Shown here piece after piece: positions 4,611 to 48,750 of a stretch of DNA of 64,000 nucleotides. The DNA is from Flavobacterium psychraerolatum (GTDB lineage Bacteria; Bacteroidota; Bacteroidia; Flavobacteriales; Flavobacteriaceae), in NCBI RefSeq assembly GCF_025960985.1, contig NZ_JAOQMX010000023.1, forward strand, positions 1-64,000, given 5' to 3'. The notes under the pieces are model-generated. The model searched no databases, was not told where the DNA came from, and worked only from the letters and a program-made list of their open reading frames with translations. Numbering within the stretch: the stretch's first letter is position 1; each line of letters begins with the position of its first letter. The position numbers and the translations under genes are program-made.

Positions 4611-4771
4611 GTATTTTGTTTTTCTAATGCTTTTATAAGCGTGTGCTAAAATAGTGTTTTTTATTTTTTGTAGTCCTTTTGTATTGGATAAAAAATGTAG
4701 TAGTTCAATTGGGGCTATTAATTACGCTTTATTAGTTTTTTAATCGAAATTTGAAATACAAAACATTCTAG

Positions 4772-4873
4772 TTAGCCCCGATTGAAACGGCATCCTTTTT
4801 ATCTGGAACTAGTAACATGGTAATGATACTAGTTCCAGATAAAAAGATACAGTGGAAAGCGGGAGGGCAGTTC
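4772..4873 (+). repeat. Flavobacterial hairpin repeat, copy 1 (possible structured RNA)
   Basis: Conserved flanks (AGCCCCGATTG..ACGGCATCC on the left, GATACAGTGGAAAGCGGGA on the right) enclose a perfect 19-bp inverted repeat, TTTTTATCTGGAACTAGTA at 4796-4814 and its complement at 4827-4845, with a 12-nt loop. Three more copies share the flanks but have different stem sequences: 8540-8627 (-), 20554-20642 (-) and 48570-48663 (+). The CCCCG / CGGGA flanks can also pair outside the main stem. Conserved ends around a changing but always paired stem suggest a structured RNA or a palindromic mobile repeat. Confidence 0.75.
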
Positions 4874-8340: not shown

Positions 8341-8907
8341 TTGTTTTATACCCACTCCTTTTAATTTCTTACCCTTGTGATTTTGGATACACCTTCAGGT
8401 AAAAAAAACTATAATAGTCTATAGATAATTAATTATTAAATTGCGTTAAAATTTTTGGCTCTACGTCGGTATTTTATATAAGCACTATCACCCACAATCA
8501 TTTTATCTTTTTCAGTCATCCTTCTTTACTTTTATATTTGGGCATGCCCTACGGTCGGGTTATCCGCTATATCTTTTTTGGGGCAAAAAAAGCCCCAAAA
8601 AAGGATGCCGCTACTACCCCTCATGCAAAATGCCTTGGGAGATTATTGTATTTAGTTGTAAATATAAATCAAAATTATAGTTGTTACAATTCATCATGAA
8701 ATTTCAACAGTTCAGTAGTATTAAATTTATTTGAGACAACAATAATAGTACTTTTGAAATAGAAATGTTTTAGGATTAGCTTCTTGTAGCATAGCAGCAT
8801 CCAAAAAAACAGCAACACTTAACACATGTATTTACATTCGTTGTATGTACTGCTGTTTTAAGCACTCAAAATCTGGAACAAATATAACAGCACTAATAAA
8901 ATAAAAA
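8341..8907. other. Gene-free stretch between OmpA-like gene and kinase operon
   Basis: Besides hairpin repeat copy 2 (8540-8627), nothing recognisable is present. The sequence is A+T-rich with frequent stops in all frames; the promoter of the kinase operon must lie in its right part, but no clear TAnnTTTG element was found near 8908. Confidence 0.6.
8540..8627 (-). repeat. Flavobacterial hairpin repeat, copy 2
   Basis: On the minus strand it reads AGCGGCATCC, then a perfect 12-bp stem CTTTTTTGGGGC / GCCCCAAAAAAG (8573-8584 and 8592-8603), then GATATAGCGGA. The stem sequence is unrelated to copy 1, while the flanks match it. Confidence 0.75.
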
Positions 8908-20553: not shown

Positions 20554-20642
20554 TGGGCATTCCCTTCGGTCGGGCTCTTCGCTATATCTTTTTTGGGGCA
20601 GAAAAAGCCCCAAAAAAGGATGCCGCTGCGATCCCTAATGCG
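20554..20642 (-). repeat. Flavobacterial hairpin repeat, copy 3
   Basis: On the minus strand, CGGCATCC precedes the stem CTTTTTTGGGGC / GCCCCAAAAAAG (20588-20599 and 20607-20618), then GATATAGCGAA. It is nearly identical to copy 2 at 8540-8627. It fills much of the gap between tsaC and the STAND gene. Confidence 0.75.
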
Positions 20643-20666
20643 GGGAGTTGGGGGAGGTTGGGGGAT
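20642..20666. other. G-rich tract, possible G-quadruplex
   Basis: Three runs of four or five G (GGGG, GGGGG, GGGGG) plus GG within 25 nt, striking in this A+T-rich sequence. It lies just beyond hairpin repeat copy 3 and about 185 bp before the STAND gene. Nothing else was recognised between 20434 and 20846. Confidence 0.4.
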
Positions 20667-20846
20667 AATTGAAGTATATAAGTGTAAGATATTATTGATA
20701 ACATCTATGTGTTTTGTCTTTCGTATGGGGTATTTTTTGGCTAAATTTGGGATTCTAAATTTATTCAAGATAATAATTAATGAGGTTTTCGATGTTTTAT
20801 AAGTCAAAATAATTAATAATAAGTTTAGTTAAAAATTAATGATAAA

Positions 20847-23800
20847 ATGATGGATCTAATCAATTGGAGTAATTTAAAACCATACAAATCAACTCAAAAT
20901 AAATGTTTTGAAGAGTTATGTTTTCAAATTTGTATGGAGGAGTTTAATTCAAAAGGTGATTTTGTTCGTATTGATGACAGTGGAGGTGGTGATGGTGTTG
21001 AATTTTATTTGCTTCTTCCAAATGGAGATATTTGGGGTTGGCAATGCAAGTTTTTTGGAAGGTTTAGTGAAGGAGGAAGGCAAGAACAAATAAAAAAATC
21101 TATAGCTACTGCTTACAGAAAACATGGAAATAAATTAAAAAAGTGGATTTTATGTTCTCAAAACTCATTGACCAATCAAGAAAAAAAATGGTTTGATTCT
21201 ATTCCTAGCCTTCAATATAAAGGAAGTGAGATTGTACCTCAAAGTGATTCTGTTTTTTTGGAGCACTGGGGAGATAGTACAATTTTGAATTACTTAAGAA
21301 AACATCCTAGTATCTATAAATTTTTCTTTACTGAGAAAATTTTAGATGATGAATGGTTCAAAGGCAAATTTGATTTGGTTTATAGTTCAAATGTTATTCG
21401 AACAAAGTATTTGGATAATTTACATACCAAAGGTGAAGTAGATGATTTTGTTTCACGACATCTAGGCGGTGTAGAGTTAGTAGATTTAATTAAAAAGGCT
21501 GAAATTAAGATTGATTTATTGCAATTTCAAAAAGAATTTAATATTGGTGTAAAGAAAATTACTGAGCGGAAAAATGAATATGAGTTTAAGGAAATTTATG
21601 ATGAAATAAACCTTTTTTTAGGCTTAAATAGTTATCATTCTATTATTAATGATGGTGTTGAGCTACTTAAAGAAATTAAATTGTTTTTATTAGAAAATAA
21701 TTATAGATTATCAGAAGTACTTCAGATCAAGATTCAAGTCTATAAAATTCATTTTAGAGAGTTTTTTGATTTATATACCAATTATAAAGATATTAAAAAA
21801 TTAAAATCCGTCCACTGGGACAATGAAGAGAATGAAGAAGATAAAGGACAAAAATATAAAATTAAAGAATGCAGAAATACTTTATTAGGACCATATTTTA
21901 CAATACGGAATTATGATTATTTTTTAAATGTTTTTGATGAATGTAGTTTGCTTAAAAGTAACGAAATGCATATAGGTGGGAATGCCTCTAAGGGTAAGAC
22001 TCATATATCAGTAAACATAATAAAAAAACAAATAGAAAAAGGAAAACCTGGAATTTTTGTCTTTGGTAAAAATTTTACAACTAATTTACATTTAAAAGAG
22101 CAGTTAAGAAGTATTTTAGATTTACCTGCATCATGGAGTATTACTGATTTTTTAGGTGCGTTAAATATATGCGGAAGAGTTCACAATACTAAAGCTATAT
22201 TGTTAATTGATGGACTTAATGAAGCTATTAATTGGAAAACCATCTGGGGAGATAGTTTAGAAGAATTAATAAATGAAATTAATACTTCATTCCCAAATGT
22301 TTTATTAATTACAACTTTTAGAACTTCGTATAAGGAGCAATTGTTTCCTACTGATTATTTCAATTATATAAATGAAAATAATCATAGGTTAGTTGAAATA
22401 TATGGTTTTTCTAATGAAAATATTAATGAAGCAATTAATAAGTATTTTAATCATTATAAAATAACATTGGAGAACTCCTCAACTGCGATAAAAGCTTTTG
22501 AAGAACCTTTGTTTTTAAAGTTATTCTGCCAAACAAAACAAGGAAGAACTGTTTCATTTCAAAATGAAGATCTATTTGATGTTTTTGAGGAATATTTAAA
22601 AAAATGTAGTGGTAGTATTCTTGAGAAGTTAAGGTTGGACAGTAGGCTTTATAAAACTTATGTAAAAAATATTCTAGGTAAACTTTCTAAAAGTTTATGG
22701 GACAACAATTCAAGAGAAATTTGCTTGGATTATGCTATTGCATATGTACTCACCCAAGAGGAGCTATTAATTTTCGAAAAAGAAGATCTTTTAATTTTCA
22801 GAGATTGGCATAATGTAGAGGTAATTACTTTTACCTATGATTTGCTAAGTGGGTATTTAATTGCAAAAAAATTATTGGAATCTATTGAAAGTACGGAAGA
22901 GTTGATTAAGAAAGTCAAAAGTGACGAATTTAAAAATAAACTTCTAATTAGAGAAACTTATCATCCATTATTTAATGATATTCTAAGATGTTTTTGCGTT
23001 TTGGCTATTAAAAAATTTGGCTTCAAATTTTATACTTACGGTGCAAATGAGATAATGGATGAATATATGTTAAAATCTATTTTTGAAATTAATAGGGAGA
23101 CAATTATTGAAAATAAAGATATTGTTATTCAAATTGTTAAAGAAAATTTCACAAATAATAATAAACACAAGTTAATTTATAATCTTTTTAAAACCTCTGA
23201 ATTAGACTTTCAAAGTCCGTTAAATTTAATTTTGCTCTCCGATTTATTGTTCGAAATGAAAGTATCGGATAGAGATTTAAGTTGGACAGAATATATAAGA
23301 ATTAATTATGGTAACTATGACAAAGAGTATCGTAATTTTTTAAACAGATTTACAAAGGCATGTAATTCTAAAATGGATTATCAAACAGATAAAATTCATT
23401 TAGTAGCAAAAAAAACTATGTGGTTTTTATCGACAACGAATAGAGAATTTAGAGATTTGTCGACTAGAGCTTTGTATTATTATGGTAGAAAGTATTTAGA
23501 TCAATTCTTAGAGTTAGTAAAGTATTCTTTATCAGTTAACGATCCTTACATTTGGGAAAGAACTTTAGCAGCTTTATATGGAATTGTACTAGCAAAACAT
23601 AACATAGACATAAATTTTAGAGAAAAGACTCTTCCCGCTATAGGCATTAGTTTATTTGAATTAATTTTTAAAAAAGGTGCCCCGTATTCAAGTACGCACA
23701 TTATTGCAAGAGATTATGCCTCAAAAATTGTAGAAATTGTGTTATTACATCATTCTAATTTATTTTCCACCAAAGATATAAATCTTACCGTTGCGCCTTT

Positions 23801-25127
23801 TAAGTTTGGTGGTAATCGAAAGCCAGGTGAATTTGATTATACTATAGGTGGAGGGATTTATTCAGAGCCAATTAGTATGGATTTTAGTAACTATACTATT
23901 GGTAGCATTGTAAAAGATGGACATTCGTATTCTAATCCTCCTGAGAAGATTAAAGTTAGAAAGCAAATTTATTGGAGGATATATGATTTAGGTTGGAATG
24001 AAGAACAGTTTAACAAAATTGATGGTGACATTAGGTCAGAAAGTTATAGGTCAAGATCTGATCAAGTTGATGTTGAAAGATATGGGAAAAAGTATTCCTG
24101 GATTGCATATTTCGAAATGGCTGGTTTAAGAAGTGATGATGGTCTACTTAAAAATGATTGGAATAAATTTAGATTTCCGAACGCTGACATTGATCCGACT
24201 TTTCCACTTAATTCAAAAAGCCAGAAATATGTATTTAACGATTATTTAGGAGACAGAAATTTATCATTAGTTGAATGGTGTTTAAATGGGGGTAAACCAT
24301 TAATTAAGGAATACCTTGAAGTTTCATGTTTAAATAAGAAAAAAGGAAATTGGGTTTGTTTGGATGGGGTAATCAGTCAAAAAGATAAAAAGGCAAATAG
24401 AGAAATTTTTGCATTTATAAGAGGTGTTTTAGTTAAAGAAGATGATTATGATAAATTTAAAGTACATCTAAAAAATAAAGATTTAGGAGGGCGGTTTTTG
24501 CCGGATTCTGGATCAAATGATTATGCTTTTGCAGGAGAATTATATAGTATTAAAAATTCAACTGATGAAAATGTCTTTTCAATAAGTTTTGAAACAAGTA
24601 GAAAAAAAGTTACAGTGCAGAAAGGAGAGGAAGGATATTATCCTACTCCAATAGTAATTGAAGGAGTGATAGAGTTATCATACCCTAAATTTATTGAAAT
24701 TGACGAACTAACTTCTGATGACTATGATGTATTACTGCCTGTTATGGATTATAGCTGGATATATAGTCAAAGCGTACTAAATCAAGCTAGTCACGAGACT
24801 ATAGTATCAAAAGAATTAGCATTTTTTTTAAAGCTTACTGATAGACCACAAACATTTAATCTTTATGATGATGATGGTAATTTAGCTTCTCAAAACCTAC
24901 AGTACACTAAAAGCATCGACAATAATCATAAGTTTACATATTTAAGAAAAGACCTACTAGATAGGTTTTTGGCTGAAAATAACTATAAATTATTGTGGAG
25001 TGTTTGGGGGGAGAGGAATGTGAGATTTAAAAATTTTGATGATAGTCGCAAATTCTATGAGGATCATAAAATTTCAGATAGGCAAGTGTTTAATGATGTT
25101 ATTGAATATACAGAAAGCAAGAAATGA
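20847..25127 (+). CDS. Nuclease-STAND NTPase protein, Avs-like candidate defence gene
   Basis: A 1426-residue protein. The N-terminus (about 1-130) looks like a PD-(D/E)XK restriction-type domain: FEELC (21-25), Asp49 and Glu52 in GGGDGVEF, and Gln66-Cys-Lys68 in WGWQCKFF. A P-loop NTPase follows, with Walker A GNASKGKT (378-385), Walker B ILLIDGLNEA (Asp455) and LLITTFRTS, typical of STAND/NACHT ATPases. Residues about 560-950 are mostly helical; the rest has mixed segments, including VERYGKKYSWIAYFEMAG. Nuclease, NTPase and long sensor-like C-terminus is the layout of antiviral STAND (Avs) proteins, which cut DNA after sensing a phage protein. Start may be either of two adjacent ATGs. It is a single gene with no obvious partner. 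Sequence-level membership of a known Avs type was not tested. Confidence 0.78.
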   Translation: MMDLINWSNLKPYKSTQNKCFEELCFQICMEEFNSKGDFVRIDDSGGGDGVEFYLLLPNGDIWGWQCKFFGRFSEGGRQEQIKKSIATAYRKHGNKLKKWILCSQNSLTNQEKKWFDSIPSLQYKGSEIVPQSDSVFLEHWGDSTILNYLRKHPSIYKFFFTEKILDDEWFKGKFDLVYSSNVIRTKYLDNLHTKGEVDDFVSRHLGGVELVDLIKKAEIKIDLLQFQKEFNIGVKKITERKNEYEFKEIYDEINLFLGLNSYHSIINDGVELLKEIKLFLLENNYRLSEVLQIKIQVYKIHFREFFDLYTNYKDIKKLKSVHWDNEENEEDKGQKYKIKECRNTLLGPYFTIRNYDYFLNVFDECSLLKSNEMHIGGNASKGKTHISVNIIKKQIEKGKPGIFVFGKNFTTNLHLKEQLRSILDLPASWSITDFLGALNICGRVHNTKAILLIDGLNEAINWKTIWGDSLEELINEINTSFPNVLLITTFRTSYKEQLFPTDYFNYINENNHRLVEIYGFSNENINEAINKYFNHYKITLENSSTAIKAFEEPLFLKLFCQTKQGRTVSFQNEDLFDVFEEYLKKCSGSILEKLRLDSRLYKTYVKNILGKLSKSLWDNNSREICLDYAIAYVLTQEELLIFEKEDLLIFRDWHNVEVITFTYDLLSGYLIAKKLLESIESTEELIKKVKSDEFKNKLLIRETYHPLFNDILRCFCVLAIKKFGFKFYTYGANEIMDEYMLKSIFEINRETIIENKDIVIQIVKENFTNNNKHKLIYNLFKTSELDFQSPLNLILLSDLLFEMKVSDRDLSWTEYIRINYGNYDKEYRNFLNRFTKACNSKMDYQTDKIHLVAKKTMWFLSTTNREFRDLSTRALYYYGRKYLDQFLELVKYSLSVNDPYIWERTLAALYGIVLAKHNIDINFREKTLPAIGISLFELIFKKGAPYSSTHIIARDYASKIVEIVLLHHSNLFSTKDINLTVAPFKFGGNRKPGEFDYTIGGGIYSEPISMDFSNYTIGSIVKDGHSYSNPPEKIKVRKQIYWRIYDLGWNEEQFNKIDGDIRSESYRSRSDQVDVERYGKKYSWIAYFEMAGLRSDDGLLKNDWNKFRFPNADIDPTFPLNSKSQKYVFNDYLGDRNLSLVEWCLNGGKPLIKEYLEVSCLNKKKGNWVCLDGVISQKDKKANREIFAFIRGVLVKEDDYDKFKVHLKNKDLGGRFLPDSGSNDYAFAGELYSIKNSTDENVFSISFETSRKKVTVQKGEEGYYPTPIVIEGVIELSYPKFIEIDELTSDDYDVLLPVMDYSWIYSQSVLNQASHETIVSKELAFFLKLTDRPQTFNLYDDDGNLASQNLQYTKSIDNNHKFTYLRKDLLDRFLAENNYKLLWSVWGERNVRFKNFDDSRKFYEDHKISDRQVFNDVIEYTESKK

Positions 25128-25192
25128 GGTGAAATAATTAGGATGTACATGATAAAAATACTGAGGCTGCTAACTAATCAAGTTTTTAAAAT

Positions 25193-25230
25193 CTTTTCGT
25201 GATTGCTTCCTTCGTCGCAATGACGAAAAG
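25193..25230. repeat. Stem-loop of the GATTGC..GCAATGACG type after the STAND gene
   Basis: CTTTTCGTGATTGC pairs with GCAATGACGAAAAG (13 of 14) around a 10-nt loop. I recall similar words as short dispersed repeats in other bacterial genomes. It may also act as a terminator for the STAND gene, although no T run follows. Confidence 0.45.
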
Positions 25231-25300
25231 TACCAAAACATAAGCTAATTCTAAGTATAACCTAATCAATCCTGCGGTGAATAACTCAATATTCTCTGCA

Positions 25301-25338
25301 AATTATGCGGTAAATAATTGTATATTTACCGCATAATT
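25301..25338. promoter_or_regulatory. Perfect 16-bp inverted repeat upstream of fic, probable operator
   Basis: AATTATGCGGTAAATA at 25301-25316 and its exact complement at 25323-25338 flank a 6-nt loop, ending 8 bp before the fic start codon. A related half-site, TGCGGTGAATAA, is at about 25273. A symmetric site at the start codon suggests autorepression, possibly by the DNA-binding-like C-terminus of the Fic protein itself. Confidence 0.6.
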
Positions 25339-25346
25339 TAAGGACA

Positions 25347-26453
25347 ATGACAAAATACATCCACCAACGACCAGATTTCCCTCAGTTTTATTGGGATAAT
25401 GAGCAATTATTGACTCCTTTAAGCGAAGTACGTTTTTTGCAAGGACGCATTTTGGGCAAAATGGAGTCATTGGGTTTTAGTACGCAATATGAGTCCAATC
25501 TATTACTATTGGAAACAGAAGTACTTTCTTCGGGAGAAATAGAGGGAGAAATTTATAAACCAGCAGCGGTACGTTCCTCCATCGCAAAACAGATCGGTGA
25601 TCCATTTTATGACAACCAACCTACAAATCAAAATATTGACGGCTTTGTGGCGTTATTGTTGGATGCTTTCCAAAATTACAAGGACGAACTAACTACAGAA
25701 CGAATTTTGAATTGGCACGCTGCTTTGTTCCCAACGGGCAATAGTGGTTTGTATCCCATAACAGTAGGGGGTTGGCGGCAAGATAAACGAGGACCAATGC
25801 AAGTAGTTTCAGGTGGAATTGGGAACGAAAATATACATTTTGAAGCTCCAGCTGCTGCTTTAGTTCCTACCTTAATGGAGGACTTTATGAAATGGCTTGC
25901 TGAAGATACGGGTCAAGATTTAGTGATAAAAGCTGCAGTTGCACATTTATGGTTTTTGACAATTCATCCCTTTGATGATGGAAATGGTCGAATAGCGCGT
26001 TCAATTTCAGAAAGTCTTTTGGCAAAGTCAGAAAATAATACGATGCGCTGTTATAGCTTATCGTCTCAGGTTTTAAGTAATAGAAAAAGCTATTTTGATC
26101 TATTAGAGGCAACTCAAAAAGGGAATTTAGATTGCACTAATTGGTTACTATGGTTTATTAAAATTTTGAAAAAAGCAATAATTCACTCAGAAACAGTGAT
26201 TAGCCGAAGTTTACAAAAGGCTGAATTTTGGAAGACACATCAAAAGACGATTTTGAATGACCGTCAACTAAAAATGATTCAGCTACTTTGGAATGATTTT
26301 GAAGGTAATTTGACCACAAAAAAGTGGGCTAAAATCACCAAATGTTCCGATGATACCGCTTTAAGAGACATCAATGATTTAATCTTTAAAGACATTTTAT
26401 ACAAGGAAGATAAAGGAAGTAGGAGTACAAGCTATAAAATGCGAGGGTTTTAA
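25347..26453 (+). CDS. Fic family protein with N-terminal inhibitory motif
   Basis: The 368-residue protein carries the complete Fic catalytic motif HPFDDGNGR at residues 207-215, with His207 as general base. It also carries an N-terminal inhibitory motif of the [S/T]-x3-E-[G/N] type at Ser62-Glu66-Gly67. The N-terminal domain (about 1-100) has the DUF4172-like YIHQRPDFPQFYWD start. The C-terminal part (about 300-368) looks like a winged-helix segment (TKKWAKITKCSDDTALRDINDL). Such enzymes usually AMPylate a protein target and are held inactive by the inhibitory helix. A perfect inverted repeat precedes the start. A decayed second copy lies at 27551-29881. Confidence 0.93.
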   Translation: MTKYIHQRPDFPQFYWDNEQLLTPLSEVRFLQGRILGKMESLGFSTQYESNLLLLETEVLSSGEIEGEIYKPAAVRSSIAKQIGDPFYDNQPTNQNIDGFVALLLDAFQNYKDELTTERILNWHAALFPTGNSGLYPITVGGWRQDKRGPMQVVSGGIGNENIHFEAPAAALVPTLMEDFMKWLAEDTGQDLVIKAAVAHLWFLTIHPFDDGNGRIARSISESLLAKSENNTMRCYSLSSQVLSNRKSYFDLLEATQKGNLDCTNWLLWFIKILKKAIIHSETVISRSLQKAEFWKTHQKTILNDRQLKMIQLLWNDFEGNLTTKKWAKITKCSDDTALRDINDLIFKDILYKEDKGSRSTSYKMRGF

Positions 26454-26507
26454 TTGAAAATATTTAAATGTGTGGTTTGGATAATGGAATTACCATTTAA
26501 ATTGTCC

Positions 26508-27416
26508 CTACCAATTGGCAAACGAAACTCCAATACCAATAGTTGTTTGCTGAATATTATAGTCAATTAAGGTTTCGCCATAACCTTGAAAAACTTGTGC
26601 ATGTCCACGTAGGTGTCCATGTATAGGAAAGACATAATTAAGTTGGATATTTCCCTTTTCCAGCGTGCTAAAAGAGTGATTGATAATGGTATAAAATTCA
26701 TGTTTACCAAAATGAGTTGCAACTTCTAATTCTGCATCACCCACAGACCTCGTGATGCCTGGGTTTTCGTCTTCGTCATCAGGCATGCGGTACCATGGTC
26801 TGAAGTTGATGTTCCAATTTTTATATTCGTACCCAATATTCAGGATGATTCTGTTCCAACTTCTAGAGGTCGGAACGTCTTTTCCGTTGGATTGATGATT
26901 TAAAGTCAAACCAACCGTTCGAATCTGCCCCTTAAATAACGGAATTCTAGTCGGGAAATTTAACATCACTTCTGGCTCGTAATTGACTTCACGAAAAGCT
27001 CTACTCAAGGTCTTGTTGTACACCTGCCAGTGTGCTTTCTGGGTGTAGCCAACCCAAAGATCTCCGGTTCCAAAAAGTAATCCTTGTATAAGTTTGGTTT
27101 TAAAACTAATTTGGAATTTAGTTTCAATATTATTAAAAATGTTTTTATCCTTGGATTGAAATTCACCACTTTCGTTAAAGGGTTTTGTATTTCGCCTACT
27201 TGACCATCGCGCAGCAGTAAAATAAATTGGGCGATAAGACATTAATCTAAAAGTTCCCTGCTTGTCAATGCTATCCAATTCCCAAGCTTCAGATAGGGTT
27301 TTACGAATAATAACCTTATTCGGATCAATTTGTGCATTAGAAATAGAGGTAATCAATAATAAAAATAGAATCGCTTGGTATATTTGCGGCATGCTTGGGG
27401 ATTTAGAATGATGCAA
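26508..27416 (-). CDS. pldA: Outer-membrane phospholipase A (OMPLA/PldA)
   Basis: The 302-residue protein has an N-terminal signal ending ITSISNAQ; a second Met at residue 9 (start 27392) is an equally good start. A beta-barrel pattern follows, with the OMPLA catalytic residues in LNHQSNGK (His174 and Ser176) and Asn188 in SWNRI. YRPIYFTAARW and GYTQKAHWQVY are also typical. It hydrolyses phospholipids that reach the outer leaflet of the outer membrane. It lies between the intact and the broken fic genes, on the opposite strand. Confidence 0.92.
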   Translation of the reverse strand: MHHSKSPSMPQIYQAILFLLLITSISNAQIDPNKVIIRKTLSEAWELDSIDKQGTFRLMSYRPIYFTAARWSSRRNTKPFNESGEFQSKDKNIFNNIETKFQISFKTKLIQGLLFGTGDLWVGYTQKAHWQVYNKTLSRAFREVNYEPEVMLNFPTRIPLFKGQIRTVGLTLNHQSNGKDVPTSRSWNRIILNIGYEYKNWNINFRPWYRMPDDEDENPGITRSVGDAELEVATHFGKHEFYTIINHSFSTLEKGNIQLNYVFPIHGHLRGHAQVFQGYGETLIDYNIQQTTIGIGVSFANW

Positions 27417-27550
27417 AAATAGGCTACAGTATAGGCTTTTATGTGTTACAAATTTTGGTATTGGTTACATAATTAACATGTTTTACCAAATGAATTATGT
27501 CTAATACTACAATATAGCGCAGGAGATAATGCTAAGAGTTAAGAAGTGTG

Positions 27551-27844
27551 ATCTCAATCGTTCAATTTAAGGAGGTCTTATGGCGTATTAAGAAAAAATG
27601 CAATACTTAGCCGTAGTTTAGGGGTGCAAATTTTGAGCTATCAATAGGCTATTATGATTTTTTGAAACAATCATAAAAAAGGAAATTTAGACTACTGCAA
27701 TTGGTAAATATGATTTTTTGAAATTTTTAAGAAAGCTATAAACCAATAAGAAGCAATAAGTAAGCATTGCTTATAAGGATTTAATTTTTCGAAAAAAAAA
27801 TAATGATTTTGAATCTACTTAATCAAAATGCAGGATCGCTCGGA
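27551..27844 (+). pseudogene. Decayed fic gene, 5' fragment before the intron
   Basis: This stretch has no open frame but aligns collinearly by eye with fic 25990-26292. Positions 27551-27740 (190 nt) match 25990-26180 (191 nt), for example GGAAATTTAGA next to GGGAATTTAGA, and ATTTTTAAGAAAGC next to ATTTTGAAAAAAGC. The remainder matches 26181-26292 with small deletions. The fragment begins about where the catalytic-motif region of fic would end; sequence further left is not recognisable. The fragment stops exactly at the group II intron start. Confidence 0.72.
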
Positions 27845-29729
27845 GTGTGCTGTGAATGAATAACGACTACGAGTGTTATTCAATGTTGTATAAGAGATGG
27901 AAGTAGGTCTTCCGCAATCGCTGTGCAAGCGGAGGTTGCAAACCGCCCCTCGGTGCTTTGAAAGTAAAGGATAGGTATTGAACGGAAAGGGGAAAAGGCT
28001 GTTTAAAACAGTCAGGTGCGAATAAGAGAGATGAACGTGAGTGAACCTTAGATGAAGTTGTGAGATATCGGAACCTTTTGTCAAAAGCCTGTTTTTCTGA
28101 GCATAGGTTATAATTATAGCGGTTACTTGCTTACTGGCTATAAGGCAAACGCAATAAAGAAGGCATGACTCTTATTTAGGCTCTTATACGAAACTCAGGA
28201 AGTCCTTATCAAATGACAAGAGAACGGCACAAGTGGGCAGTACCCACAAGGCTTACAGTATCAAGGTTGGTAAGGATGGCGGATGTTGTTGTAGTAGTGA
28301 TGAAGCCACTGTAATGGAGGTGGAGCGAAGAACAGCAGTCATACAGTTGTTGGTATTTTGACAACTTAAACACAAAATTTAAGGATGACTAATTTATTTA
28401 CGACAGAATCAAAAACAATTCCAATAACCAAAAAGATGGTCAAGGAAGCCTACCGCAAAGTCAATTCTAACAAAGGCAGCGCAGGAGTTGATGCAGAAAG
28501 CTTGAAAAAATTTCAAGAAAACTTATTAAACAATCTGTATAAAATTTGGAACAGAATGAGTTCGGGCAGTTACTATCCGCAGGCAGTCAAGGAGGTTATT
28601 ATCCCAAAATCAGACGGAGGTCAGCGCAAGTTGGGTATTCCAACAATTAGCGACCGCATTGCTCAAGAAGTAGTAAAAACCTATCTCGAACCTAGAATGG
28701 AAGCTATATTTAGCAAAAATTCGTACGGTTACAGACCCAATAAAAGCGCACACAATGCACTAGAAAAGGTCAGAGAAAACGTAAGACATTATTCTTGGGT
28801 TGTTGATATGGACATCAAAGCATTTTTTGACGAAGTAAATCATGAACTTTTGCTCAAAGCAATAGACAAACACGTTAGTGAGAAATGGGTTAAGATGTAC
28901 ATTGTGCGATGGTTGGAAAGCCCAGTGCAAACACAAGACGGCACATTGGTTTACAAAAACGAACAAGGCACACCCCAAGGAGGCGTAATAAGTCCGCTAT
29001 TGGCAAACCTGTTTTTACATTATGTTTTAGATAGATGGCTGGAGCAAACCTACCCAAACTTAACATTTGTGAGATACGCTGACGATGTGATAGTACATTG
29101 TTACAGCGAATCTCAAAGTTTAGAAGTTCTAAATGCTATAAAAACCAGACTAGAACAATGTAAATTGCGATTGAGTGAGCAAAAGACCAAAATAGTCCAC
29201 TGCCAAGCCTATAATAGAGTTAGGCAAAAGAAGTATCCGAAGAAATTTGATTTTCTAGGTTTCACATTCAAGCCACGAACAAAAGCCACAAAAGAGGGTA
29301 GGTTGTTTTTGGGATTTGATTGTGAAATAAGTCAGAAATCAAAAACAAGGATAATCCAAAAGTGGATAGACCTAAAATTTCATAAGCAAAGTAATATAGT
29401 TATACAGGATATAGCCAATAAGCTACACTTACAGACAATAGGAATAGCACGTTACTATGGCTATTTTAAAGTTTGGACGCTACAGAAACTGTTTAGAAAT
29501 CTAGAAAATCGTTTGGCGAAATGGGTACGGAATAAGTTTAAATCGATGAAAAGGAGCTATACTAAAGCATACCGATGGTTGAGGGAAATAAGAACCAATT
29601 ACCCATCAATGTTTTACCATTGGCAACTTTTTAAAACGATATGATTTGTATGACAAGAGCCGTATGAAGCGAGAGTTTCACGTACGGTTCTGTGAGAGGC
29701 TTGGGTTGAAATATCTTTGCCTACTTGAC
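27845..29729 (+). mobile_element. Group II intron, complete
   Basis: The intron begins GTGTG (5' consensus GUGYG) and ends ..CTACTTGAC (3' AY). It encodes a maturase at 28385-29644. A domain V hairpin lies at about 29659-29694 (AGAGCCGTATGA..TACGGTTCT with a GAGA-type loop), and domain VI follows (AGGC..GCCT, about 29697-29722). Both ends are confirmed independently: the flanks resume the fic alignment without gap, the left exon ending at fic 26292 and the right exon starting at fic 26293. Length is 1885 bp. A candidate EBS1, TCTGAGC at 28096-28102, pairs with the last seven exon bases GCTCGGA (one G-U pair). Confidence 0.88.
28385..29644 (+). CDS. ltrA: Group II intron reverse transcriptase/maturase
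   Basis: The 419-residue protein has reverse transcriptase blocks in order: GSAGVDAESL, IPKSDGGQRKLGIPTISDR, YGYRPNKSAHNAL, DMDIKAFFDEVNH, GTPQGGVISPLLANLFL and the catalytic YADD at 231-234. FDFLGFTFKPR and a C-terminal maturase (domain X) region follow, with IARYYGYFK. No HNH endonuclease domain follows, so it is the shorter, endonuclease-free form. It acts with the intron RNA in splicing and in retrohoming. The frame is intact, so the element may be active, but its host gene is dead. Confidence 0.94.
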   Translation: MTNLFTTESKTIPITKKMVKEAYRKVNSNKGSAGVDAESLKKFQENLLNNLYKIWNRMSSGSYYPQAVKEVIIPKSDGGQRKLGIPTISDRIAQEVVKTYLEPRMEAIFSKNSYGYRPNKSAHNALEKVRENVRHYSWVVDMDIKAFFDEVNHELLLKAIDKHVSEKWVKMYIVRWLESPVQTQDGTLVYKNEQGTPQGGVISPLLANLFLHYVLDRWLEQTYPNLTFVRYADDVIVHCYSESQSLEVLNAIKTRLEQCKLRLSEQKTKIVHCQAYNRVRQKKYPKKFDFLGFTFKPRTKATKEGRLFLGFDCEISQKSKTRIIQKWIDLKFHKQSNIVIQDIANKLHLQTIGIARYYGYFKVWTLQKLFRNLENRLAKWVRNKFKSMKRSYTKAYRWLREIRTNYPSMFYHWQLFKTI

Positions 29730-29881
29730 ATCATTTTTAAGAAAAACCTGTACACTAAATAATTGGGTTCAACTAAATAATATATTCTAATGATATTGCA
29801 TTGAAGACTGATAATGATCTTAATCAGAAATGCATTCTAAAAAAACACTACAAAAGCAGTAGGAATACGAATTATAAAATG
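29730..29881 (+). pseudogene. Decayed fic gene, 3' fragment after the intron
   Basis: 152 nt here align with fic 26293-26441 (149 nt): TGATATTGCATTGAAGAC against TGATACCGCTTTAAGAGAC, and AGTAGGAATACGAATTATAAAATG against the last codons of fic. Frames are broken by stops. Together with 27551-27844 it is the other half of one broken gene. Confidence 0.72.
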
Positions 29882-29987
29882 TAAATGTTATAAATGAAAA
29901 TCTTTTCCTTGAAATAAATACATTCTTTGTGATATTGCCATATTTTGCTGTTGAGGCTAAATTCTATTGAAATTAGTTGTCAAAAAA

Positions 29988-31205: not shown

Positions 31206-31855
31206 AATTGTAAGTTTTGATTGTTTAGGGATAAAATTACAAATAAAAGGAGTACTCCCAGATTGATAATTACTTTATAATTTTACATAATTTGCAGGTC
31301 ATCTCGCATTTGTTTCTATTGGTATTTGTAATAAAAGTTGAAAAGGGGGATTATCTAATTTTGTTCTCAAAAAGTGAATTATAACTAATTTTTAGGTGTA
31401 AATTATCAATAATGGAAAAATTATATGGTCGATTTTGGACTAATTAAGATGTTTTTAGTAATTCTAAATCTTTTATCTTTTTGTCATTTAATAAAATAAG
31501 TGCGAATAAAATAATAGAAGGTTTTTATCATTGTGATATTCTAAGAAATAGCTCGTAAAATCACGTTTTGGACAATAAAACCCTCTTTTTTGTCTAAATT
31601 TGCAATCCATTATTTTGCTTCTTTAAGACTGTTTTTTTTCAAACAGGTTGACATTGATTATAAATCATTTACTCATTTAAGTTTTTTGAATGCCTTTCTC
31701 TAGCTTTTTGCTATAGGATGAACATTGCTATTTTACAGTATTTAGTTATAAAAAAAAGGCAGGACAATAAGATAATCAAACCTATTGCTGGATCACCTGA
31801 ATAACTTTTTTTTAGGTATCCTTTATTTATTAAAAGTTTAATTTAAAAAAGATTG
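31206..31855. other. Gene-free stretch upstream of the porin-BCCT operon
   Basis: 650 bp of A+T-rich DNA with no gene or repeat recognised. A perfect TAnnTTTG (TAAATTTG at 31595-31602) has a TTTG 24 nt upstream (31567-31570), which could be a promoter with a leader of about 250 nt before the porin gene. Confidence 0.45.
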
Positions 31856-33007
31856 ATGTTAGAAAAAATTACTCGATTACAATGCACAAAAAAGAAGTGC
31901 TTAATGCTCCTAGTTTTACTTATGGTACTTCCATTAGCCGCTCAGGATAAGCCAGAACTAAGTATTGGAGGTGCTTTGCGTTTCAACTATAATTTATCTT
32001 CATGGAAGGATGGTCAGAAAAAGCGAGGGGGAGATTTTGGATATGATGTGTTTAGAATAAATGCCAAAGGGGCATACAAAGGAATACTGATGAATGCCGA
32101 GTACAGACTGTATTCTGAAGGTTTTGGTGGTGGAATGCTAAAGCAGGGTTGGCTAGGATACAATTTAAACGAACAAGATCAAATTCAGGTTGGTTTAACC
32201 CAGGTTCCTTTTGGTATTCAGCAATACAACTCTCACAATTGGTTTTTTAACTTAACGTATTATGTAGGTCTGGAAGACGATCATGATATGGGAATAAAGT
32301 ACATGCACAATAGTGAGAAATTTGAATATCAATTGGCTTTTTTCAAAAATGCAGAGGAATTAAGATTTGGAAACAATTCAGAAAATTCGACAAGTCGCTA
32401 TTCTTACGATGTCACGGGGAGAAATAAAGAAGTGAATCAATTTAACGGAAAAGTCATCTACAAATTTGGCGAAAAGTCAGCAAGTAGATTGGGTGTTTCA
32501 GTAGAATATGGTGGGCTTTACAATCTAGACACAGAAGAAGTTGGAAATCATGCTGCTTTTGCTGCTCACTATGAACTAACCAAAGGAAAATGGAATGTAA
32601 AAGCACAATTTATCGCTGCAACAAATAATCCTGAAAATGCTATTGGAGAATCCGACGATGTTGTAACCATGTCTGCATATGGAGCACCTTATGAAGTTGC
32701 TGCCGATTTTAATATGTACACCTTGGGGATTTCTAGGAATGTTCCCGTAGAATATGGACCTATAACCAACTTGCAATTTTATAATGATTTTGGTTTTATG
32801 CAGAAAAAAACAGCTGGATTTACCGATTCGTATATGAATGTTACTGGAGTTTTAATCTCAGCAGGAAATGTGTATACCTATGTTGATTATGCCGCGGGGT
32901 ACAATCATTCCTGGCTTGGTGGGAATTTTGTAGATGATTTTGCAAAAGGGAATCCTGATGCCAAATGGGAAGCTAGGTTTAACATTAATATTGGTTACTA
33001 TTTTTAG
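31856..33007 (+). CDS. Outer-membrane porin
   Basis: A 383-residue protein, starting at the ATG at 31856 rather than the in-frame TTG just before it, with a signal peptide ending VLPLAAQ. The rest is a run of short amphipathic strands with many aromatic girdle residues (for example LYSEGFGGGMLKQGWLGY and GGLYNLDTEE), ending in Phe, as beta-barrel proteins do. It resembles phosphate-selective OprO/OprP-like porins in general form. It is followed by a BCCT transporter gene 70 bp downstream, which suggests a role in outer-membrane passage of that transporter's substrate. Confidence 0.8.
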   Translation: MLEKITRLQCTKKKCLMLLVLLMVLPLAAQDKPELSIGGALRFNYNLSSWKDGQKKRGGDFGYDVFRINAKGAYKGILMNAEYRLYSEGFGGGMLKQGWLGYNLNEQDQIQVGLTQVPFGIQQYNSHNWFFNLTYYVGLEDDHDMGIKYMHNSEKFEYQLAFFKNAEELRFGNNSENSTSRYSYDVTGRNKEVNQFNGKVIYKFGEKSASRLGVSVEYGGLYNLDTEEVGNHAAFAAHYELTKGKWNVKAQFIAATNNPENAIGESDDVVTMSAYGAPYEVAADFNMYTLGISRNVPVEYGPITNLQFYNDFGFMQKKTAGFTDSYMNVTGVLISAGNVYTYVDYAAGYNHSWLGGNFVDDFAKGNPDAKWEARFNINIGYYF

Positions 33008-33077
33008 ACTTTGAACACAAAGTAGAAGGATTTAGAAGAATAAGAAATTTAAATTATAATAATAAATAAAAGGATCT

Positions 33078-34709
33078 ATGGCTAAGAAAATTATAAGAAG
33101 TGATGAGAGGAAATCCATTTTTGGGTTGGAGGTTAATGGCCCGGTGTTTTTTACATCAGCGATTACTATCATTCTAATCATTACACTAACGTTGATGTTT
33201 AAAGATGGGGCAGAAAAATTTTTCACAGCAACCCAAGAATTAGTAGCCAATAAGGCGGGTTGGTTCTTTATATTAAGTGTGAATATTTTTCTAATATTCA
33301 TGATTTATTTAGCGTTCAGTAAATTTGGACACTTACGAATCGGAGGTCAAAATGCAAAACCTGAATTCAAGACTCTATCTTGGTTTGCTATGCTTTTTAG
33401 TGCGGGAATGGGAATCGGATTGTTATTTTGGAGTATATCAGAACCTATTTTTCATTTTCTTAGTCCACCAATGGCAGAAGGCGGAACCGCCGAAGCAGCC
33501 AAGGAAGCTATGAAATTCACCTTCTTGCATTGGGGTTTTCACGCTTGGGCTGTTTATGCTTTGGTAGGTTTGTCTTTGGCCTATTTTACGTATTCTAGAG
33601 GCTTACCGTTAACCATTAGATCCATTTTTTATCCTTATTTAGGAGATAGGATTTATGGGAGGATCGGTGATGCAATTGATATTTTTGCAGTGTTGGCTAC
33701 ATTATTTGGTCTTGCAACCTCATTAGGTATGGGCGTACAACAAATTGCAGCAGGTTTACACCATCTTTTTGGAATCGATAGCGGTGTGCAAACTCAAATT
33801 GTCTTAATTATTGGTGTTACATTAATTGCTACCGTTTCGGTTGTTTTGGGAGTAGACAAAGGGGTACGAGTATTAAGTGAATGGAACATGATAATAGCCG
33901 TTTTGTTTCTATTGATTGTTTTGATTCTAGGACCAACCATTTTTATTTTTAAATCTTTTGTGCAAAATACTGGGAATTATTTATCTGGTTTTCTTGAAAT
34001 AGCAACTTGGACAGAAAGTTATACGGGTTCAAATTGGCAAAATGCTTGGACCATTTTTTACTGGGGATGGTGGATTGCATGGTCTCCTTTTGTAGGGATG
34101 TTTATTGCTCGTATTTCCAAAGGTCGTACCGTACGTGAGTTTATTTTAGGTGTTTTATTAGTACCTTCTCTTGTTACTTTTTTCTGGATAACAGCTTTTG
34201 GAAGTACCGCATTACATCAAGCACTACTTGGAGATGAGACTATCGTAAAAGCAGTAAATGATAATGTAGCTACTGCTTTGTTTGTGTTTTTAGAAGATTA
34301 TCCTTTCTCTTTTTATCTGAATATTATTGCTATAATATTAATTGCAGGTTTCTTTATTACCTCCTCAGATTCTGGGTCATTGGTAGTTGATAATTTAACT
34401 TCTGGAGGTAAAATAGATGCTCCTGTGGGCCAAAGAATTTTTTGGGCCCTTTCTGAAGGTGGTGTTGCTGCCGTACTATTATTAGGAGGAGGGTTGCAGG
34501 CACTTCAAACGGCCACGATAGTCACGGGCCTGCCTTTTGCTATTATTTTAATCGTGATGTGCTTTTCACTTTATAAAGGTTTAAGCGAAGACCTTAGAAA
34601 ATTAGAAAAACGACATTCTCAAAAAGAGCTTGAAAATTACGAAGAAATAGTTTCAGAGATCGTTAAAAAACAACATACAAGTCAATTAAATAAAAATAAA
34701 CAATCATAA
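33078..34709 (+). CDS. BCCT-family betaine/choline/carnitine-type transporter
   Basis: The 543-residue protein with 12 membrane helices has the BCCT signatures. These are GMGIGLLFWSISEPIFHF, the FHWGxHxWA-type segment (LHWGFHAWAVYA), and FYWGWWIAWSPFVGMFIARISKGRTVREF, with the tryptophan-rich aromatic box for quaternary ammonium substrates. It would import betaine, choline or a similar compound with Na+ or H+. It lies between a porin and a universal stress protein in one cluster, with only 1 bp before the next gene. The substrate cannot be fixed from sequence. Confidence 0.95.
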   Translation: MAKKIIRSDERKSIFGLEVNGPVFFTSAITIILIITLTLMFKDGAEKFFTATQELVANKAGWFFILSVNIFLIFMIYLAFSKFGHLRIGGQNAKPEFKTLSWFAMLFSAGMGIGLLFWSISEPIFHFLSPPMAEGGTAEAAKEAMKFTFLHWGFHAWAVYALVGLSLAYFTYSRGLPLTIRSIFYPYLGDRIYGRIGDAIDIFAVLATLFGLATSLGMGVQQIAAGLHHLFGIDSGVQTQIVLIIGVTLIATVSVVLGVDKGVRVLSEWNMIIAVLFLLIVLILGPTIFIFKSFVQNTGNYLSGFLEIATWTESYTGSNWQNAWTIFYWGWWIAWSPFVGMFIARISKGRTVREFILGVLLVPSLVTFFWITAFGSTALHQALLGDETIVKAVNDNVATALFVFLEDYPFSFYLNIIAIILIAGFFITSSDSGSLVVDNLTSGGKIDAPVGQRIFWALSEGGVAAVLLLGGGLQALQTATIVTGLPFAIILIVMCFSLYKGLSEDLRKLEKRHSQKELENYEEIVSEIVKKQHTSQLNKNKQS

Positions 34710-34710
34710 A

Positions 34711-35568
34711 ATGGCTGAAATAAAAAACATATTGGTCGCCTTAGACCTTTCAAATATTGACACTACTTTAATTGAGTATGCATCCTTTATAGCAGAAACT
34801 TTAAAGGTGAATAAAGTTTACTTTGTACATAATATCAAGAAATATGAAATATCAGAATTGTTTGAAGAGCAATTAAAAGGTATCAATCTAGATGAAATAA
34901 TTGGAGATGAATTAAATGAAAAAGTAGAAGAGAGATTTACCTCTTCAACAGACTGGGAGGTACTTATTTCAGAAGATCCCTATTCGGAATCACTTATAGA
35001 TTATATTGTTAATAAGTATGAAATTCAACTTGCTATAGTAGGTAATAAAAATAAAATTAAAGGAACTGGGGTTGTTAGCGGAAAGCTACTTCATATGCTT
35101 AAGTGTAATATTCTATCCATTCCTATGAATTCAAAACCTGTTATTAGTGCTATTTGGGCGGGTACAGATTTTTCAAGCGCTTCTAATAAAGTATTTGAAG
35201 TAGCCGAAAATTTACAGAAAACTACAAAAGCTACCGTAAAGTCGGTTCACGTTTACAATGTTCCATTACAATTTTCAATTTATATTCCAAAGGAACATCT
35301 TGATTCAAAAATTGAGAATCATTTAAAGGGAAAACATGAGAAATTTATTAAAAAGATAGGATACAAAGGAGAATTGACTACAGAGATAATTCCAGGTAGA
35401 GATACTGGGATTGCTGAAAAATTACGTACCAAAGCGGAATCTGCAAAGGTTGATCTTATTATTGTTGGTGACAAGGGGAGGAATACTTTCTCATCATTAT
35501 TGGTTGGTAGCGTCACAGATGAACTCTTTAATCAAGATTTGAACATCCCTTTGTGGATTGTAAAATAA
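34711..35568 (+). CDS. Tandem universal stress protein
   Basis: The 285-residue cytoplasmic protein has two UspA-like domains (about 1-145 and 146-285). The second ends with the ATP-binding type signature VGDKGRNTFSSLLVGSVTDEL; the first is more divergent. It begins one base after the BCCT transporter stop, so it is certainly co-transcribed and probably translationally coupled. A Usp attached to a transporter may sense ATP/AMP or regulate the carrier; this is inference. Confidence 0.92.
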   Translation: MAEIKNILVALDLSNIDTTLIEYASFIAETLKVNKVYFVHNIKKYEISELFEEQLKGINLDEIIGDELNEKVEERFTSSTDWEVLISEDPYSESLIDYIVNKYEIQLAIVGNKNKIKGTGVVSGKLLHMLKCNILSIPMNSKPVISAIWAGTDFSSASNKVFEVAENLQKTTKATVKSVHVYNVPLQFSIYIPKEHLDSKIENHLKGKHEKFIKKIGYKGELTTEIIPGRDTGIAEKLRTKAESAKVDLIIVGDKGRNTFSSLLVGSVTDELFNQDLNIPLWIVK

Positions 35569-48145: not shown

Positions 48146-48750
48146 TTTTTTTTCAATAAGTTTCAGAACTATGAGTTAACTCTTTTATTCTAGATGGGAT
48201 GTTTAAAACAGCAGATTCATTGTGTAGATTTTTTCAATGTGTATTTTATTACTTGTTGTGTTGTAGAATAGAACATTATATCTTACTTATTATTCTATTC
48301 CATTTGGATAGGGTACAGTATTAGAGTGCTGTTTTGTAAAATTCTCTAAAATTAATTGTTTTGAAGGGTAAAATAGGAGTTGAAGCTATCATTGTTGTTG
48401 TTTAATTCCAATGTTTTTTTATTTCCTAGGTTCATTTTGTAGTTTTTGTAAATTATTTTGGTTGCAAATTGGTGCTATTGTTCAAATGTAACAAGTTTTT
48501 GCTTTGCTAAGGTTTGTAATTCTTACTCTTGATTTTTTTACAGCCACTCATTATAGACCTCCTTAATCCCTAGCCCAGATAGTAGCGGCATCCTTTTATT
48601 GTGGAATGGAGCGGTAGCGGAATGCCATAATAAAAGATAGAGCGGAGAGCTGGAAATAGCTCCTGAAAAATAATTGACGTTATAAGGTGCTAATAAAATA
48701 TAAATAATTATTTTTGCAAACGCTTAAAATTAAAATTATTACTAGATATT
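48146..48750. other. Gene-free stretch containing hairpin repeat copy 4
   Basis: No gene. Besides the repeat at 48570-48663 it has a candidate promoter -7 element TATTTTTG at 48709-48716, 35 nt before the oxoamine synthase start. Confidence 0.55.
48570..48663 (+). repeat. Flavobacterial hairpin repeat, copy 4
   Basis: The flanks TAGCCCAGATAGTAGCGGCATCC and GATAGAGCGGAGAGC match the other copies. The stem here is CTTTTATTGTGG (48593-48604) with CCATAATAAAAG (48625-48636), one G-U type mismatch, enclosing a 20-nt loop. Confidence 0.75.

Follow-up and report, generated by a model that had tools for sequence, protein, structure and literature searches.

We found that the 1426-residue protein encoded at positions 20847 to 25127 of the window, by which we mean the whole 64,000-nucleotide stretch of Flavobacterium psychraerolatum DNA analyzed here, is, as judged from its sequence, a member of the known Avs2 (AVAST type 2) family encoded by a stand-alone gene, and that it falls into a divergent, mostly Bacteroidota branch within that family. 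The gene is probably functional and a true defense gene. Its reading frame opens with an ATG at 20847, closes with a stop codon ending at 25127 and carries no internal stop, exactly as the initial annotation had placed it. It is the only gene of its kind in the host genome; no conserved operon partner was found, since orthologue neighborhoods vary by genome, and promoter and terminator scans gave results no better than chance. The features discussed below are as follows.

20847 to 25127, plus strand: avs2-like gene, 1426 aa, PD-(D/E)XK nuclease, STAND NTPase and sensor
20895 to 21155, plus strand: predicted PD-(D/E)XK nuclease core, residues 17 to 103 (E22 helix; G50-V51-E52; Q66-C67-K68)
21435 to 21878, plus strand: variable all-helical linker, residues 197 to 344, the nuclease-NTPase spacer, helical in the model
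21978 to 22001, plus strand: P-loop GNASKGKT, residues 378 to 385 (G383 and K384 invariant)
22200 to 22223, plus strand: Walker B/STAND motif LLIDGLNE, residues 452 to 459 (I454, D455, L457, N458 and E459 invariant)
23214 to 25124, plus strand: C-terminal sensor, residues ~790 to 1426, homologous to the Avs2 sensor
24084 to 24116, plus strand: sensor motif GKKYSWIAYFE, residues 1080 to 1090 (G1080-K1081-K1082-Y1083 invariant)
20571 to 29981, no strand: ~9.4-kb segment that the nearest relative (G025) lacks at the corresponding site, holding Avs2, Fic, phospholipase A1 and a group II intron

Assignment to Avs2 and the divergent branch

Six Avs2 models of PADLOC matched the window protein with 177 to 476 bits, the best being PDLC02164 (476 bits, E 7.7e-143), and the sole non-Avs2 match at E ≤ 1 was LmuA, which hit the nuclease domain. 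The only NCBIfam match was Avs2 (NF041813), an equivalog model with a cut-off of 1000 bits; at 338 bits the protein missed that threshold and belongs to the wider Avs2 family only. Among solved structures, a single-sequence search matched the Avs2 structure 9o4e (E 1.3e-38), which was also the sole PDB match of the clade profile (E 2.3e-89, with a second 9o4e domain at 1.2e-14), and the same profile recovered canonical Avs2 proteins with E values between 1e-82 and 3e-133. No Avs1, Avs3, Avs4 or Avs5 family was listed for the protein by PADLOC at E ≤ 1 or by NCBIfam at E ≤ 0.1, and the Sir2 domain, an Avs5 trait, is absent from it. In Tenacibaculum larymnensis LAR25, DefenseFinder is reported to call avs2A/AVAST type II (PMC10013915); because that genome has one Avs2 locus only, the one encoding the orthologue L014, we infer with good confidence that the avs2A call and L014 are the same gene.

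The description of an Avs-like nuclease-STAND defense protein in the initial annotation is supported. Its view that the protein falls outside the named Avs types proved wrong, because PADLOC, NCBIfam and 9o4e all point to Avs2 and the sensor is collinear with that of canonical Avs2; nor is the label "undescribed" supported, given the avs2A call in the genome of L014. It looked unnamed because the branch is divergent and lies below the NCBI Avs2 cut-off; the branch is already called Avs2 by existing defense-finding tools and is missed by the strictest annotation model.

A scan of bacterial genomes revealed 21 loci with relatives spanning most or all of the protein at 36 to 64% identity, together with one fragment, in Flavobacterium, Tenacibaculum, Christiangramia, Algoriphagus, Arundinibacter, Prevotella and others (L002 to L023). 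The fragment, L022, is 45% identical over the first 118 residues with no intact ORF there and was rejected as an intact relative. A Bacteroidales orthologue (L018:5992-10323) is split into three ORFs, by decay or by assembly error. A cyanobacterial plasmid protein, L024, is a distant sister with 29% identity. On the NCBI Avs2 model the branch scored 292 to 356 bits (window protein, 338; L014, 356; L024, 292) and canonical Avs2 proteins scored 1025 to 1487 bits, the latter (from plasmids and from the same genus and order) reaching 1271 to 2119 bits with their best PADLOC model. In a maximum-likelihood tree of the STAND and sensor region, a long internal branch with 99% support separated this group, together with the cyanobacterial pair, from canonical Avs2; L112 entered this tree as a truncated sequence and its placement is to be ignored. 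We considered whether L112 and L120 carry the same nuclease on a different STAND protein and rejected this reading, as they represent another remote Avs2-like protein. Occurrence is patchy within the genus: a close orthologue was present in 4 of 199 genomes of relatives, the window's own genome not counted.

Domain architecture

Residues 17 to 103 were modeled as alpha-beta-beta-beta-alpha-beta, the core of the PD-(D/E)XK fold. In a PDB fold search with the N terminus, the first eight matches were all PD-(D/E)XK-type nucleases, at E values of only 0.006 to 0.1; the top matches included EcoO109I, a Pyrococcus repair nuclease, Cdn1, LmuA and EndoMS, and Cap4 was also among the weak matches. Seven residues (E22, G50, V51, E52, Q66, C67 and K68) are invariant in all 20 clade members. 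The model, the nuclease fold matches (best E 0.006) and this invariance agree with the PD-(D/E)XK-like N terminus noticed at the outset, and we regard the domain as a predicted nuclease and the putative effector of the protein. The active site first proposed needs amending in one position: Glu52, Gln66 and Lys68 stand, but Asp49 does not, since residue 49 is D in 11, G in 7, S in 1 and P in 1 of the 20 members. Two canonical Avs2 proteins of the same genus (L033:325-4890 and L032) have a different N-terminal domain; that of L033 matches another LmuA model than the one hit by the window protein and gave no alignment to the window nuclease, which fits effector exchange within the Avs2 family.

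The linker that follows (residues 197 to 344) showed the lowest conservation in the clade, 0.25 to 0.30, with the helical stretch 201 to 350 being least conserved. The STAND NTPase extends over about residues 365 to 715, and the P-loop ATPase recognized earlier was confirmed by intact GNASKGKT and LLIDGLNE motifs, in which G383, K384, D455, N458 and E459 are invariant across the 20 clade members.

Conservation is higher in the sensor than in the linker, and sensor homology to canonical Avs2 reaches the C-terminal end: segments within residues 1022 to 1257 matched canonical proteins at E 7e-9 to 1e-19, and segment 1296 to 1400 matched at E 7e-13 in L034 and more weakly in others. The G1080-K1081-K1082-Y1083 core is invariant in all 26 aligned proteins, clade and canonical Avs2 together. 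The order nuclease, STAND ATPase and sensor holds as originally drawn. Comparison with Avs structures, a check that the initial annotation had suggested, gave matches of the model of residues 338 to 1426 to terminase-bound Avs3 (8dgc), portal-bound Avs4 (8dgf) and NLR proteins including NLRC4; E values ran from 3e-9 to 1e-6, and TM-scores over the whole chain were low.

Genomic setting

To the left of the avs2-like gene lie the core genes for Sua5, the CCA-adding enzyme and CtaA. In the nearest relative, G025, YdeI-like and SodC genes directly follow Sua5, and the counterparts of window positions 20570 and 29982 lie only 67 bp apart there (locus L070), so that about 9.4 kb is either extra here or was lost there. 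The earlier description of an accessory island with mobile elements is thus roughly right, in that the ~9.4-kb segment holds a group II intron and is absent from G025, but the arrival of the segment could not be attributed to any one mobile element.

Several further elements were observed in the window. The group II intron (27899 to 29729) looks complete and has a reverse transcriptase/maturase, with RF01999 and RF00029 flanking its ORF (28385 to 29644). Flavo-1 RNA (RF01705) occurs at 20564-20649, 4770-4870, 8549-8631 and 48568-48660; with 112 matches in the genome it resembles a dispersed repeat, and Rfam lists it as an sRNA gene. One copy lies at the left boundary of the ~9.4-kb segment, where homology to G025 stops at 20570. 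A second block absent from G025 (31853 to 35568), encoding an uncharacterized 384-aa ORF product, a BCCT transporter and a universal stress protein, sits between SodC and acyl-CoA dehydrogenase. A match to Acido-Lenti-1 RNA (RF01687) at 784 to 828 scored 39.9 bits (gathering score, 37), outside the namesake phyla.

Neither neighboring gene was retained as a partner. The adjacent Fic gene (25347 to 26453) encodes a Fic-domain protein with DUF4172 and an intact core, HPFDDGNGRIAR, and is preceded by a 26-nucleotide imperfect inverted repeat (25291 to 25348). Its N-terminal SGEIEG fits the Fic inhibitory motif, so that the protein bears an inhibitory motif of its own, and a distant Fic-like gene lies upstream at one orthologue locus only (L013, 29% over 149 aa). 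Phospholipase A1 was rejected likewise: a distant match (30%) occurs at one orthologue locus, L002, and the gene is present in 27 of 121 genomes of the genus; at none of the other loci examined is it flanked by Sua5, Avs2 or Fic. Around the orthologues we found Gabija GajAB (L007), a type I restriction enzyme (L010), Orf5/HEC-06-like genes (L010 and L015), E1-E2/JAB (L002), a DruE-like gene (L020) and PDC-M62A (L003).

Proposed mechanism and known systems

The protein very probably works as a stand-alone anti-phage sensor of the Avs2 kind, on a divergent and mostly Bacteroidota branch, acting by phage-protein sensing, oligomerization and DNA cleavage. Avs1 to Avs3 sense the large terminase, and Avs2 trimerizes with ATP and switches on its N-terminal effector (PMC12724215, PMC12931631). 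By analogy with these relatives, the sensor (~790 to 1426) would bind a conserved phage protein made in infection, for which the large terminase subunit is the likeliest candidate. Oligomerization of the STAND NTPase with ATP would follow, and the oligomer would bring the PD-(D/E)XK domains (E22, E52, Q66 and K68) together to cut DNA. Such cleavage would stop infection, probably via cell death, an abortive outcome.

The ligand is the weakest step of this scheme, because an Avs2 relative responds to a second ligand, Ksap1, as well (PMC12724215), and the literature yielded no reports on the activity or ligand of this branch. The long branch and an NCBI score (338 bits) below the 1000-bit cut-off indicate that ligand choice may differ. 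A tentative alternative is that the same nuclease-STAND defense protein senses, in place of terminase, another conserved phage protein, such as a portal, a Ksap1-like protein or one specific to Bacteroidota phages. The distance from canonical Avs2, with sensor identity of about a quarter, would be in keeping with this, as would the Ksap1 response and the sensing of portal by Avs4 and of JADA by Avs5 (PMC12931631, PMC12724215); however, the sensor is collinear with canonical Avs2 towards the C terminus and retains the invariant GKKY core, and NCBIfam gave no Avs4 resemblance at E ≤ 0.1. It is rather unlikely that the branch forms a functionally distinct Avs2 subtype, its sensor reading a different phage protein and adapted to phages of Bacteroidota; if so, the label "Avs2" of annotation tools would lump sensors of differing ligands.

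STAND proteins have many roles, and this functional diversity, with no phage assay of the branch reported in the literature, would allow the protein to target plasmids or other mobile elements, or to function in regulated cell death unrelated to phages. We consider such a role improbable, since the closest characterized relatives are anti-phage and the orthologues cluster with anti-phage systems in a patchy distribution. That the gene represents a genuinely new Avs type with a sensor unrelated to Avs1 to Avs5, as first suggested, is highly improbable: the score under the equivalog cut-off and the long internal branch would fit it, but STAND and sensor are homologous throughout to canonical Avs2, and PADLOC and the DefenseFinder avs2A call agree on Avs2.

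With the family already known, only the divergence and the ligand of the gene product make it interesting. The anti-phage Avs2 reading adds a candidate branch to a characterized family of bacterial innate-immune sensors. Should the branch work like Avs2, the reach of terminase sensing would include Bacteroidota phages; should it work otherwise, it would be a naturally occurring contrast for studying what determines ligand choice. A whole clade of full-length Avs2 relatives also goes unnamed under the NCBI cut-off for Avs2.

Among known systems, LmuA of Lamassu and Cap4 have the nuclease module alone in common with the window protein (LmuA matched residues 59 to 118, 28.7 bits, E 2.9e-7); no SMC-like LmuB gene is adjacent, the neighbors being Sua5 and Fic. 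Avs3 (8dgc) and Avs4 (8dgf) resemble it at the fold level in the STAND and sensor part, but gave no sequence match in PADLOC at E ≤ 1 or NCBIfam at 0.1. With Avs2 (PDLC02161-02166, NF041813 and 9o4e) it shares a STAND NTPase and sensor that are homologous along their length and encoded in a single stand-alone gene, and the canonical members L025 and L031 likewise bear a related PD-(D/E)XK N terminus; it differs from them in being only 22 to 31% identical in aligned pieces and in its separate branch, and its nuclease domain could not be aligned to that of 9o4e by the sequence searches used. The orthologues L002 to L023 and cyanobacterial L024 differ from the window locus in their neighbor genes, with identity falling from 64% to 29%, but are full-length and keep the domain order and invariant residues of the window protein.
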